Of a DNA stretch of 64,000 nt, positions 48,482 through 59,118 are shown in pieces (the stretch's first letter is position 1; every line of letters begins with the position of its first letter). This stretch comes from Cellulomonas hominis. Its GTDB lineage: Bacteria; Actinomycetota; Actinomycetes; Actinomycetales; Cellulomonadaceae. The notes beneath the pieces were generated by a model. That model worked only from the letters and a program-made list of their open reading frames with translations. It made no database searches and was not told the origin of the DNA. The position numbers and the translations under genes are program-made. The stretch is from positions 2,914,001-2,978,000 of the forward strand of contig NZ_JACHDN010000001.1 in the NCBI RefSeq assembly GCF_014201095.1. Reading direction: 5' to 3'.

Positions 48482-49570
48482 TCATCCCCGCAGGGCCGCG
48501 CCGGTGTCCGCGGCGAAGACGTGGGCACGCTCCGCCGGCACGTGGGCGGCGGTCCGGTCGCCGGGACGCAGCGGGCTCTCGGCCGGCACCTTCGCGACCA
48601 CCGTGTGCGCGCCCGCCCGGAGGGTCGCGAACGCCTCGTCCCCACGCTGCTCGAGCAGGACCACCTCGGCGGCCAGCGCTGCCTCGCCGTCCCGCAGCTC
48701 CTCGCCCACACGCACGTGCTCCGGCCGCACGCCCAGCGTGAGCCCGGTACCCGCGGCAGCGGCGGTGCAGCCGGCCGGAAGCCACCCGCGCGGCACCTGG
48801 ACGCCCGGGACGACGACGGCGCCCTCGGACCAGCGCGCGGGCAGGAGGTTGATCTCGGGTTCACCGAGGAACTGCGCGACGAACCGGTCGGCGGGGTCCT
48901 GGTAGAGCTCGCGGGGGGTGCCCTGCTGGCGCACGACGCCGTCCTCGAGCAGCACGATGCGGTCGGCCATGGTCATGGCCTCGACCTGGTCGTGGGTGAC
49001 GTAGACAGTGGTGACGCCGAGCGAGCGGTGCAGCGCGAGGATCTCGGCGCGCATCGTGCCCCGGAGCTTCGCGTCGAGGTTGGACAGCGGCTCGTCCATG
49101 AGGAAGATCCCGGACTGCTGGACCATGGCCCGGGCCAGGGCGACGCGCTGCCGCTGGCCGCCGGAGAGCTCGGCGGGCGGCCGCTCCAGGTACGGTTCGA
49201 GACCGAGCGTGCCGGCGACCTCTGCGACCTTCTCCCGGACGACCGCGCGGGGCGTGCGCCGGAGCCGCAGCCCGAACGAGATGTTCTGCGCGACGGACAT
49301 GTGCGGGTACAGCGCGTAGTTCTGGAACACCATCGAGACGTCGCGGTCCTTGGGGTGCACGTCGTTCATGCGGCGGCCGTCGACGAGGACGTCGCCCGCC
49401 GTGACGTCCTCCAGGCCGGCGAGCATCCGCAGCAGCGTGGACTTCCCGCAGCCGGAGGGGCCGATCAGGACCACGAACTCACGGTCGGCGATGGTGAGGG
49501 ACACGTCGTCGACGGCGAGCGTGCTGGTGCCGTAGACCTTCGAGACGTGGGACAGCTCGATCGTGGGCAT
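48482..49570 (-). CDS. Carbohydrate ABC transporter ATPase (MsmK/UgpC type)
   Basis: The 362-residue protein has Walker A GPSGCGKST (37-45), Q-loop FQNYALYPHM, signature LSGGQ (135-139) and Walker B LMDEP (157-161), then a C-terminal OB-type regulatory domain from about 240 containing GVRPEHVRVGEEL. It energises the import complex formed with the permeases at 51356 and 52288. Many actinobacteria share one MsmK among several sugar importers; here an ATPase is encoded in the operon itself, as the last gene. It starts 10 nt after the DUF1189-like gene stop. Confidence 0.93.
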   Translation of the reverse strand: MPTIELSHVSKVYGTSTLAVDDVSLTIADREFVVLIGPSGCGKSTLLRMLAGLEDVTAGDVLVDGRRMNDVHPKDRDVSMVFQNYALYPHMSVAQNISFGLRLRRTPRAVVREKVAEVAGTLGLEPYLERPPAELSGGQRQRVALARAMVQQSGIFLMDEPLSNLDAKLRGTMRAEILALHRSLGVTTVYVTHDQVEAMTMADRIVLLEDGVVRQQGTPRELYQDPADRFVAQFLGEPEINLLPARWSEGAVVVPGVQVPRGWLPAGCTAAAAGTGLTLGVRPEHVRVGEELRDGEAALAAEVVLLEQRGDEAFATLRAGAHTVVAKVPAESPLRPGDRTAAHVPAERAHVFAADTGAALRG

Positions 49571-49580
49571 GGGACTCCGA

Positions 49581-57379: not shown

Positions 57380-59118
57380 GCTGGTGGCACGAGGCCGTGG
57401 TCTACGAGGTGTACCCGCGGTCGTTCCAGGACTCCGACGGCGACGGCGTCGGCGACCTTCGCGGCCTGACGCAGCGCCTCGACCACCTCGCGTGGCTCGG
57501 CGTCGGCGGGCTCTGGCTCTGCCCGGTCTACCCGTCGCCGCAGCGGGACAACGGGTACGACGTGTCCGACCTCTGCGGGGTGGACCCGCTGTTCGGCACC
57601 CTGGACGACCTGGACGCCCTGGTGGCCGCGGCGCACGAGCGGGGCATCCGGGTGGTGTTGGACCTGGTGCTGAACCACACCTCGGACGCGCACCCGTGGC
57701 TGCGGCAGCACCCCGAGCGGTACGTGTGGCGTCCACCCCGGCCGGGGTGCGCCGGGGGTGCGCCGGGCTCCGAGCCGACCAACTGGGGGGCGGCGTTCGG
57801 CGGGTCCGCCTGGACGTGGGACGCCGGACGGGGGGCCTACCGCCTCGGGATCTTCTCCCCGTGGCAGCCCGACCTGGACTGGTCGCGACCGGAGACCCGG
57901 GCGGCGCTCGCGGACGTCCTGCGGTTCTGGCGGGCTCGGGAGATCGACGGCTTCCGGCTGGACGTGATCACACTCGTGGACAAGCCCGACGTGCTGCGGG
58001 ACGGTCCCGTCGGCCCAGGGTCCGGGTACGCGGACGCCGTGGCCGCCTGCGCCGGGGGGCCGCGGCTCGCCGGGTACCTCCGGGAGCTGCGTGCCGCGGC
58101 GGGGGACGCGCTGCTCATCGGCGAGGCGCCGGGGACGACCCCGGAGGGGGCCCGGGTGCTCACGACCGACGGCGGCCTGGACCTGGTGCTCCAGTTCGAG
58201 CACGCCGAGCTGGACCGCGAGCCCGCGCGCTGGCGCCGGCGCCCCCTGGACCTCCGCGACCTCAAGGCGTGGGCGGCGCGCTGGCAACGCCCGGACGCCG
58301 GCTGGCCGGCGCTGTTCCTCGGCAACCACGACCAGGCGCGCATCGCGTCGCGGTACGGGGCGCCGGACCCTTGGACCTCCCGGTCGGCCGCGATGTGGGC
58401 GGTGCTGCTGCACGCGCACCGCGGCACCCCGTTCCTCTACCAGGGCGACGAGATCGGCATGACGAACCGGCCGGTCGCCGGGCCGGAGGACCTCGTGGAC
58501 GTGGAGGCACGGACCGTGCTCGCCGCCGCGGTGGCGGGCGGCGCCGACCCCGCGGCCGTCCTGGACGGCCTGCGCGCGCTCGGCCGGGACCACGCCCGGG
58601 TGCCGGTCTCCTGGGACGACGGGCTGCACGGCGGCTTCACCGCGGGTACGCCGTGGCTGGCCGCGCACCCCGAGGCCCGGCACCGGAACGTGGCGGCCCA
58701 GCGGGACGACCCGTGCTCCGTGCTCCGCGTGCACCGCGACCTCGTGGCGCTGCGGCGCACCGAGCCCGCGCTCGCGCACGGGGACACGACGGTGCTGCTG
58801 CCCGACGACCCCGTGCGCTACGCGCTGCTCCGCCGGCGCGGGGAGGTCGAGCTGCTGCTCGTGGCGAACGTGTCGTCGACGGAGGCCCCGTGGCCCACCG
58901 GGGGCGCCACCGAGGGCTGGGCGGACGCCGCGGTGCTCCTCAGCACCCGGCGGGTCCCGCCCGACGGGCCCCGCCCCGCCGCCGCGGACGACCCGGGCCC
59001 CGCCGCCCCGCTGGCCCCGTGGGAGGCCCGTCTGCTCCGCCGGGTCCGGTCCCGTTCCGGCGCCCCGCACCACCTGATGACCGACACGCTGATGGGATAC
59101 CGTGACGCCCGTGCCTGA
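57376..59118 (+). CDS. GH13 family alpha-glucosidase-like enzyme
   Basis: The 580-residue protein opens VVYEVYPRSFQDSDGDGVGDL, the GH13 alpha-glucosidase/oligo-1,6-glucosidase start. Catalytic residues are Asp196 (GFRLD, nucleophile), Glu250 (IGE, acid/base) and Asp319 (NHD), with region I DLVLNH (96-101) and FLYQGDEIGMTN. A C-terminal beta domain follows about residue 480. No signal peptide, so it acts on imported sugars. An alpha-glucosidase in a mannoside operon suggests mixed glucose/mannose oligosaccharides or a trimming role. GTG overlaps the manA stop, and its end overlaps manB by 17 bp. Confidence 0.92.
   Translation: MSWWHEAVVYEVYPRSFQDSDGDGVGDLRGLTQRLDHLAWLGVGGLWLCPVYPSPQRDNGYDVSDLCGVDPLFGTLDDLDALVAAAHERGIRVVLDLVLNHTSDAHPWLRQHPERYVWRPPRPGCAGGAPGSEPTNWGAAFGGSAWTWDAGRGAYRLGIFSPWQPDLDWSRPETRAALADVLRFWRAREIDGFRLDVITLVDKPDVLRDGPVGPGSGYADAVAACAGGPRLAGYLRELRAAAGDALLIGEAPGTTPEGARVLTTDGGLDLVLQFEHAELDREPARWRRRPLDLRDLKAWAARWQRPDAGWPALFLGNHDQARIASRYGAPDPWTSRSAAMWAVLLHAHRGTPFLYQGDEIGMTNRPVAGPEDLVDVEARTVLAAAVAGGADPAAVLDGLRALGRDHARVPVSWDDGLHGGFTAGTPWLAAHPEARHRNVAAQRDDPCSVLRVHRDLVALRRTEPALAHGDTTVLLPDDPVRYALLRRRGEVELLLVANVSSTEAPWPTGGATEGWADAAVLLSTRRVPPDGPRPAAADDPGPAAPLAPWEARLLRRVRSRSGAPHHLMTDTLMGYRDARA

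Follow-up and report, generated by a model that had tools for sequence, protein, structure and literature searches.

A probable β-mannoside salvage cassette inserted directly before the housekeeping phosphomannomutase gene manB in Cellulomonas hominis

Background

Phosphorolytic sugar salvage needs a mutase to use the mannose-1-phosphate that it generates. The enzymes closest to the present subject are, on the one hand, GH130 proteins such as β-1,2-mannobiose phosphorylase (PDB 7fip) and 1,2-β-oligomannan phosphorylase (9fj8) and, on the other, the MPT family of Leishmania, which combines transferase and phosphorylase activities on a substrate named mannogen and turns over internal storage mannan. 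Here we describe a locus of Cellulomonas hominis in which homologues of both groups are encoded, together with an importer, a mannose-6-phosphate isomerase (ManA) and a GH13 enzyme, immediately before manB, the gene for a phosphomannomutase/phosphoglucomutase. The window, that is, the whole stretch analysed, comprises the 64,000 nucleotides at positions 2,914,001-2,978,000 of the single-contig 4.49 Mb genome.

An insertion into a conserved gene order

We consider it reasonably likely that a β-mannoside cassette was inserted before the -10 box of manB, coupling mannoside salvage to ManB while the basal promoter of that gene was kept. The gene order was compared across a genus set of 81 genomes, the window's own included, 65 of which have a manB match at E ≤ 1e-60. 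In 55 of these 65 DUF3499 and manB lie on the same strand with a gap of 315-537 bp, and only two have a wide gap on one contig, namely the window genome (11.1 kb) and G009 (12.2 kb). The two genes are on different contigs or at different places in seven more genomes, three of which are carriers whose island is interrupted by contig ends; a further genome lacks a DUF3499 match. No manB match at this threshold was found in 16 of the 81 genomes. In G003, G016, G019 and G023 the immediate next gene after the zinc-ribbon gene is the small open reading frame (ORF) normally found after manB. In other families of the order 12 genomes had a DUF3499 match; of the 10 loci inspected among them, seven showed the short order, one an inverted manB and two no manB match in reach. 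The break in the window is real and derived because the short DUF3499-manB order prevails both in the genus and in other families. The earlier note had taken DUF3499 and manB to be near neighbours in most actinobacteria and the genes between them to be an insertion, and both statements are borne out by many relatives; the inserted order is nevertheless not fixed, the island being patchy, with a short gap in seven near relatives. Six of these (G015, G052, G069, G074, G075 and G078) have an empty site, at which the zinc-ribbon ORF directly precedes manB, and the seventh, G001, also has a short gap.

GH130 of the island type (81-86% identity) is present in five of the 81 genomes, namely those of the window, G009, G017, G080 and G090, and five further genomes carry only another type of GH130 (64-66%). 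The island is contiguous in G009, and in G017, G080 and G090 its pieces stop at contig edges with the order as expected, the middle of the G080 island (DUF1861 and the permeases) lying outside the view. In G017 (L041:5570-8578) an extra binding protein and two permeases are encoded between the island binding-protein gene and lacI; these were not seen at that place in the window or G009. The island GH130 has diverged among the five carriers (79-86%) about as much as the flanking GT2 gene (83-90%), the close pair G009/G080 being set aside. GH13 and manA are more diverged than GT2 (74-79% and 63-73% identity, respectively) and the permeases less so (87-95%). Ratios of nonsynonymous to synonymous substitution (dN/dS) of 0.08-0.41 indicate purifying selection on the island genes, except for a small membrane protein at 0.49-0.72. 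In a tree of concatenated flanking proteins, some nodes of which are weak, the carriers do not form one clade, and G009 and G080 group with the empty-site genome G052. Apart from a dip to 67-70% GC at 51-53 kb the island is not foreign-looking in composition. A mobile element or tRNA site was also entertained as the agent of insertion and set aside: there is no tRNA in the window, and no integrase was noticed among the genes read around the island, although no search was aimed at integrases.

Structure of the locus

Genes between 47,671 and 61,762 were delimited from ORFs and Pfam matches, and nine of them lie between the zinc-ribbon gene and manB. The features are as follows.

47671-48042, forward strand: DUF3499, left flank of the insertion (PF12005, 170 bits)
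48048-48338, forward strand: zinc-ribbon ORF, last before the island (no Pfam match; CxxC...CxxC visible)
48482-49570, reverse strand: ATP-binding cassette (ABC) ATPase of the UgpC/MsmK type (PF00005, TOBE_2; NF008653 434.9 bits, cut-off 432)
49581-50363, reverse strand: small membrane protein, poorly conserved (no Pfam match; 53-58% among three carriers)
50367-51314, reverse strand: DUF1861 (PF08950 268.8 bits, cut-off 28)
51356-52291, reverse strand: sugar ABC permease, MalG-like (PF00528)
52288-53331, reverse strand: sugar ABC permease, MalF-like, overlapping each neighbour by 4 nt (PF00528)
53328-54584, reverse strand: solute-binding lipoprotein of the importer (PF01547 91 bits; lipobox LAAC)
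54714-54729, no strand: LacI-type operator TTCAAACCGGTTTGAG, importer side (from the sequence)
54946-54961, no strand: LacI-type operator GTCAAACCGGTTTGGA, GH130 side (from the sequence)
55092-56150, forward strand: GH130, probable β-mannoside phosphorylase (PF04041 96.2 bits, cut-off 26)
56147-57379, forward strand: manA, class I mannose-6-phosphate isomerase (PF20511; TIGR00218 181.8 bits, cut-off 116.2)
57376-59118, forward strand: GH13, oligo-1,6-glucosidase-like (PF00128 370 bits)
59098-59103, forward strand: probable manB -10 box TACCGT, within the GH13 reading frame (conserved in island and empty-site relatives)
59102 (first in-frame GTG) or 59111 (proposed leaderless GTG) to 60565, forward strand: manB, housekeeping phosphomannomutase/phosphoglucomutase (NF007088 727.7 bits, cut-off 618)

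The island thus consists of a leftward block (48482-54584) with the importer, the small membrane protein and DUF1861, and a rightward block (55092-60565) of GH130, manA and GH13 that runs on into manB. GH130 overlaps manA, and manA overlaps GH13, by 4 nt each, and the GH13 stop codon (59116-59118) lies inside manB, 17 nt past the GTG at 59102 and 8 nt past that at 59111. Between the convergent zinc-ribbon and ATPase genes there is an 18-bp inverted repeat (arms 48379-48396 and 48428-48445), possibly a terminator; inspection by eye revealed no such repeat at the corresponding place in the other four carriers.

The junction with manB

Among the four other carriers the junction between GH13 and manB is open in frame. 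The G009 junction lies within one uninterrupted ORF of 1064 codons, which extends from the GH13 start to the manB stop and matches the Pfam models for alpha-amylase and for PGM_PMM I-IV. The two genes are in frame throughout in G090; in G080 the shared frame begins at GH13 codon 42, the 41 codons before it being off-frame; in G017 the 97 codons up to the contig edge, which cover the GH13 C-terminus, are likewise in frame. The linkers that follow the residues LLRR (VLRL in G017) are 8 codons long in G009, G080 and G017 and 12 in G090. In the window the same register runs for 16 codons to MGYRDA, where one extra C shifts the frame and a TGA follows, so that the junction differs by a single base, GACGCCCGTG in the window versus GACGCCGTG in the other carriers. 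A GH13 paralogue in the same genome (51%) ends two residues after the equivalent PWEARVVRR, so the linker probably follows an already complete GH13 domain. Of 248 genomes sampled from the order, the window's own among them and with three candidates scored in each, none gave a fusion match spanning both halves at E ≤ 1e-200, the four fused carriers not being in that draw.

The same few nucleotides probably hold the promoter of manB. Of 24 distinct leaders of the genus, 23 have a TAnnnT box 6-7 nt upstream of an in-frame start, the exception being L049 (G006), which has a longer leader; a box of this kind 6-8 nt before the start, with no room for a leader, has the sequence character of a leaderless promoter. 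The box itself reads TACCGT in each of the five carriers as well as in the empty-site genomes G015, G052, G069, G074 and G078, and GATGGGATACCGTGACGCC is identical in G009, G017, G080, G090, G015, G052, G069 and G074, the window only adding a C after it. No conserved -35 element was recognised by eye before manB. The spacing from box to start is 7 nt in the window, G001, G075, G078, G043, G081 and G088, and 6 nt in the fused genomes, G015, G052, G069 and G074. Among candidate starts, the ATG that would give MGYRDAV... is ruled out in G075 by an in-frame ATG-GGA-TAG, and G001 is the same; G078 has TAC at that position and is uninformative for the choice. The -10 spacing and the in-frame TAG of G075 together suggest that manB probably starts, leaderless, at the GTG at 59111. 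The leader codons are rare in the five manB genes (GGA is 1 of 247 glycine codons and CGT 5 of 139 arginine codons). At the rate of manB, an unchanged leader in the five genomes would arise with a probability of about 0.06, so that codon usage and the pattern seen in the outgroups weigh more. We conclude that the cassette was inserted immediately upstream of the probable -10 box of manB, which the fused frame traverses. We had considered the window form as a broken fusion and dropped this view, the pattern of -10 spacing fitting either direction of the one-base change. As 7-nt and 6-nt spacings both occur among relatives, the ancestral state of the junction may have been either.

Enzymes encoded by the island

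The best PDB matches of the GH130 protein are 7fip and 9fj8, strong over the C-terminal third. Its E94-D95-P-R is aligned with VEDPR of 7fip, D95 being presumably the catalytic aspartate, and in a 22-sequence profile its KIGAGP and HHGV are matched by similar stretches in 7fip and 1vkd. We take the residues of these two stretches to bind phosphate; in 5a7v, which we take to be a hydrolase, and in 4onz they are replaced by TECGPP and YNGK. The motifs point to a probable β-mannoside phosphorylase.

DUF1861 is homologous over nearly its full length to Leishmania MPT-1, MPT-2 and MPT-4 (PDB 6q50, 6q4w and 6q4x; E 6e-30 to 7e-25), a family called GT108. Its Asp91 (LQDPF) is aligned with D94, the residue changed in the MPT-2 D94N structure. 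DUF1861 is thus a probable second enzyme forming mannose-1-phosphate and, as it is MPT-like and GH130 has phosphorylase-type motifs, two enzymes may feed mannose-1-phosphate to ManB. Within the order the gene is very rare: a draw of 297 genomes yielded it in one, that of the window, and beyond the draw it occurs in G009, G017 and G090.

GH13 matches oligo-1,6-glucosidases in the PDB at E values down to 3e-127, with the motif residues D196, E250 and D319, presumably the catalytic Asp, Glu and Asp, intact. In GH13 enzymes a valine after the nucleophile goes with 1,6 preference, and those of the oligo-1,6-glucosidase type release glucose rather than glucose-1-phosphate.

ManB exceeds the NF007088 equivalog cut-off and has the TASHNP motif with Ser114, which we take to be the active serine. 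There are four PGM_PMM_I matches in the genome, of which the other three, read by eye, appear to be GlmM, a phosphosugar mutase and Pgm; the idea of a second ManB that would free this copy was discarded on this reading, and the manB of the locus is probably the only dedicated one in the genome. Of three manA matches in the genome two lie directly behind a GH130. A further manA in the window, at 36091-37356, is probably the housekeeping copy.

Regulation

A palindromic LacI-type operator lies on each side of the divergent region, at 54714 and 54946, and copies with at most one mismatch are present in G009 and G017. Copies of the 13-mer TCAAACCGGTTTG number just two in the genome, and both fall in the interval from the binding-protein gene to GH130. 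Just upstream of the 54946 operator we read, by eye only, a TTGACA-17-TTCAAT pair. In G009, G017 and G090 a lacI gene is located between the binding protein and GH130 (the G080 contig ends before that point), and a cognate lacI is absent from the cluster in the window. The nearest homologue (51%) is encoded at 2227085-2228098 of the genome, in a second GH130 cluster, upstream of which the site CTCAAACCGGTTTACT shares the operator core. The simplest reading is that the repressor of this 2.23 Mb cluster would control the island in trans; the alternative is constitutive expression of the island. The second cluster (2222000-2241500) encodes a LacI protein, a binding protein, two permeases, a GH130 65% identical to the island copy and ManA, followed by a large secreted protein resembling, by eye, a polysaccharide lyase of family 8 with discoidin-like domains.

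Functional interpretation

Taken together, these features suggest a cassette for what are probably β-1,2-linked mannosides, inserted between the zinc-ribbon gene and manB. An oligosaccharide would be taken up by the divergently encoded ABC importer and an α-glucosyl part of it stripped by GH13, and GH130, probably with DUF1861, would release mannose-1-phosphate by phosphorolysis, to be converted by ManB to mannose-6-phosphate and by ManA to fructose-6-phosphate. A repressor of the LacI family is predicted to close both divergent promoters. As the GH130-manA-GH13 transcript has no gap before manB, its induction should raise ManB too, and the embedded leaderless promoter would keep a basal level of the enzyme. 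In the sister species this coupling may have become, or may always have been, a single GH13-ManB polypeptide. It is quite possible, if somewhat less likely than not, that one frame has two outputs, an inducible GH13-ManB enzyme and a constant stand-alone ManB made from the internal leaderless promoter. All genes named in the earlier note are present at the coordinates given, with the GH13 stop inside manB as it had claimed, and its description of GH130 as a phosphorylase agrees with the motifs, which are of the phosphorylase rather than the hydrolase type; it had not identified DUF1861 as a second probable source of mannose-1-phosphate. Its proposal that a salvage operon was placed on manB holds for the anatomy, with the overlap in the window and the in-frame junction in sister genomes, and the anatomy goes beyond what the note had proposed, but it needs qualification: unremarked in the note, manB probably retains its own leaderless promoter and so need not depend on the operon.

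Several observations weigh against this interpretation as a whole. The N-terminal part of GH130 aligns weakly with solved enzymes and the protein does not reach the NF052550 model for β-1,2-mannobiose phosphorylase (114.3 bits, cut-off 450), which leaves the linkage uncertain; the role of GH13 in mannoside use, and its substrate, is a guess. No operator within one mismatch is present in G090, which has only two GAACCGGTTC palindromes, two mismatches off, and a consensus promoter scan listed none in the divergent region. The frame of G080 (L085, before 2632), a draft genome, is interrupted by an apparent frameshift near the GH13 N-terminus, attributable to either decay or a sequencing error. 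Only two in-frame changes of linker length were seen. Stop codons are rare in such GC-rich DNA, as shown by G069, where 265 codons are open ahead of manB although the site is empty, and an open frame by itself is weak evidence for a selected fusion. Finally, since the carriers are not one clade on flanking genes, an old insertion with several losses is indistinguishable from interspecies exchange of the locus.

Some of these points would suit a neutral neighbourhood, in which the gap tolerated the cassette, manB is still expressed solely from its own promoter and the rarity of stops in very GC-rich DNA accounts for the overlap or fusion. Full retention of the -10 box, the patchiness of the island with its seven short-gap relatives and the chance occurrence of long open frames, as in G069, all accord with it. 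We nonetheless regard it as unlikely, though not negligibly so, given the in-frame junction in four genomes, the three linker lengths (8, 12 and 16 codons, counting the window), the 4-nt overlaps along the operon and the fact that the products of the inserted pathway are exactly what ManB and ManA use. The intact, oligo-1,6-glucosidase-like motifs of GH13 raise another prospect, that of a cassette for α-glucosides or mixed glucosyl-mannosides, in which GH13 does the main work, a side residue is left to GH130 and DUF1861, and the ManB fusion serves glucose metabolism. The family name of ManB, which covers phosphoglucomutase, and the retention of GH13 in a related Metabacillus cluster would fit this, but the presence of manA and two mannosyl phosphorylase families in the island points to mannose, the related Sphingomonas and Niallia stretches opened have no GH13 match, and the glucose expected of such a GH13 is not the phosphate that a mutase would use; we hold this prospect to be improbable. 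Slightly less probable still is a sequencing error in GC-rich assemblies, which would have produced either the fused frame of the relatives or the split frame of the window. The two states differ by one base, the four fused assemblies are all drafts, three of them broken in this region, and there is the nearby frameshift in G080; yet the fused junction recurs in four separate assemblies, and its leader base count is shared by the empty-site genomes G015, G052, G069 and G074. Insertion of a mannoside cassette before the -10 box of manB, coupling salvage to ManB, thus remains the interpretation that we favor.

Comparison with known systems

A widespread relative of the island is the actinobacterial LacI-importer-GH130 cluster of Microbacterium, Kribbella, Cryobacterium and others, which includes the genome's own at 2.23 Mb and has a GH130 62-68% identical to that of the island. 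Of 178 loci 80 were retained, with flanks of up to 10 kb, four of the 80 being island loci. A LacI gene lies within the flanks in 71 of the 80, and the own-genome copy is followed by manA; unlike the island, the 76 other loci have no DUF1861, GH13 or manB match above the score limit. Five plasmid records match DUF1861, of which three were opened (those of the Bacillaceae Metabacillus, NZ_OK052578, and Niallia, NZ_CP102590, and of Sphingomonas, NZ_CP117028). As in the island, DUF1861 (41-46% identical) adjoins in all three a GH130, ABC permeases and a LacI-like gene, and in Metabacillus a GH13 is also in the cluster. In contrast to the island, there is no manB or manA match in the stretches of about 15 kb, no fusion was seen, and the permeases, GH130 and GH13 are only 27-34% identical to those of the island.

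At the level of the enzymes, GH130 resembles 7fip and 9fj8 in the stretches around KIGAGP and HHGV and departs from them in that the strong match is confined to the C-terminal third and the equivalog cut-off is missed. DUF1861 shares with the Leishmania MPT structures near-full-length homology and the catalytic aspartate and differs in that its gene sits in an import cassette, which, if our interpretation is correct, would provide a bacterial setting for a family known from Leishmania. Phosphorolytic mannoside cassettes thus appear to be a known kind of system, and the variation here would be that a housekeeping mutase has been captured and fused, being physically linked to the cassette by an overlap in the window genome and by one reading frame in sister species. 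If so, the carriers constitute a natural test of whether coupling the supply of mannose-1-phosphate to its use matters; leaderless genes could be captured without loss of basal expression, and insertion before such a gene might be a general means by which islands take over core enzymes without breaking them.

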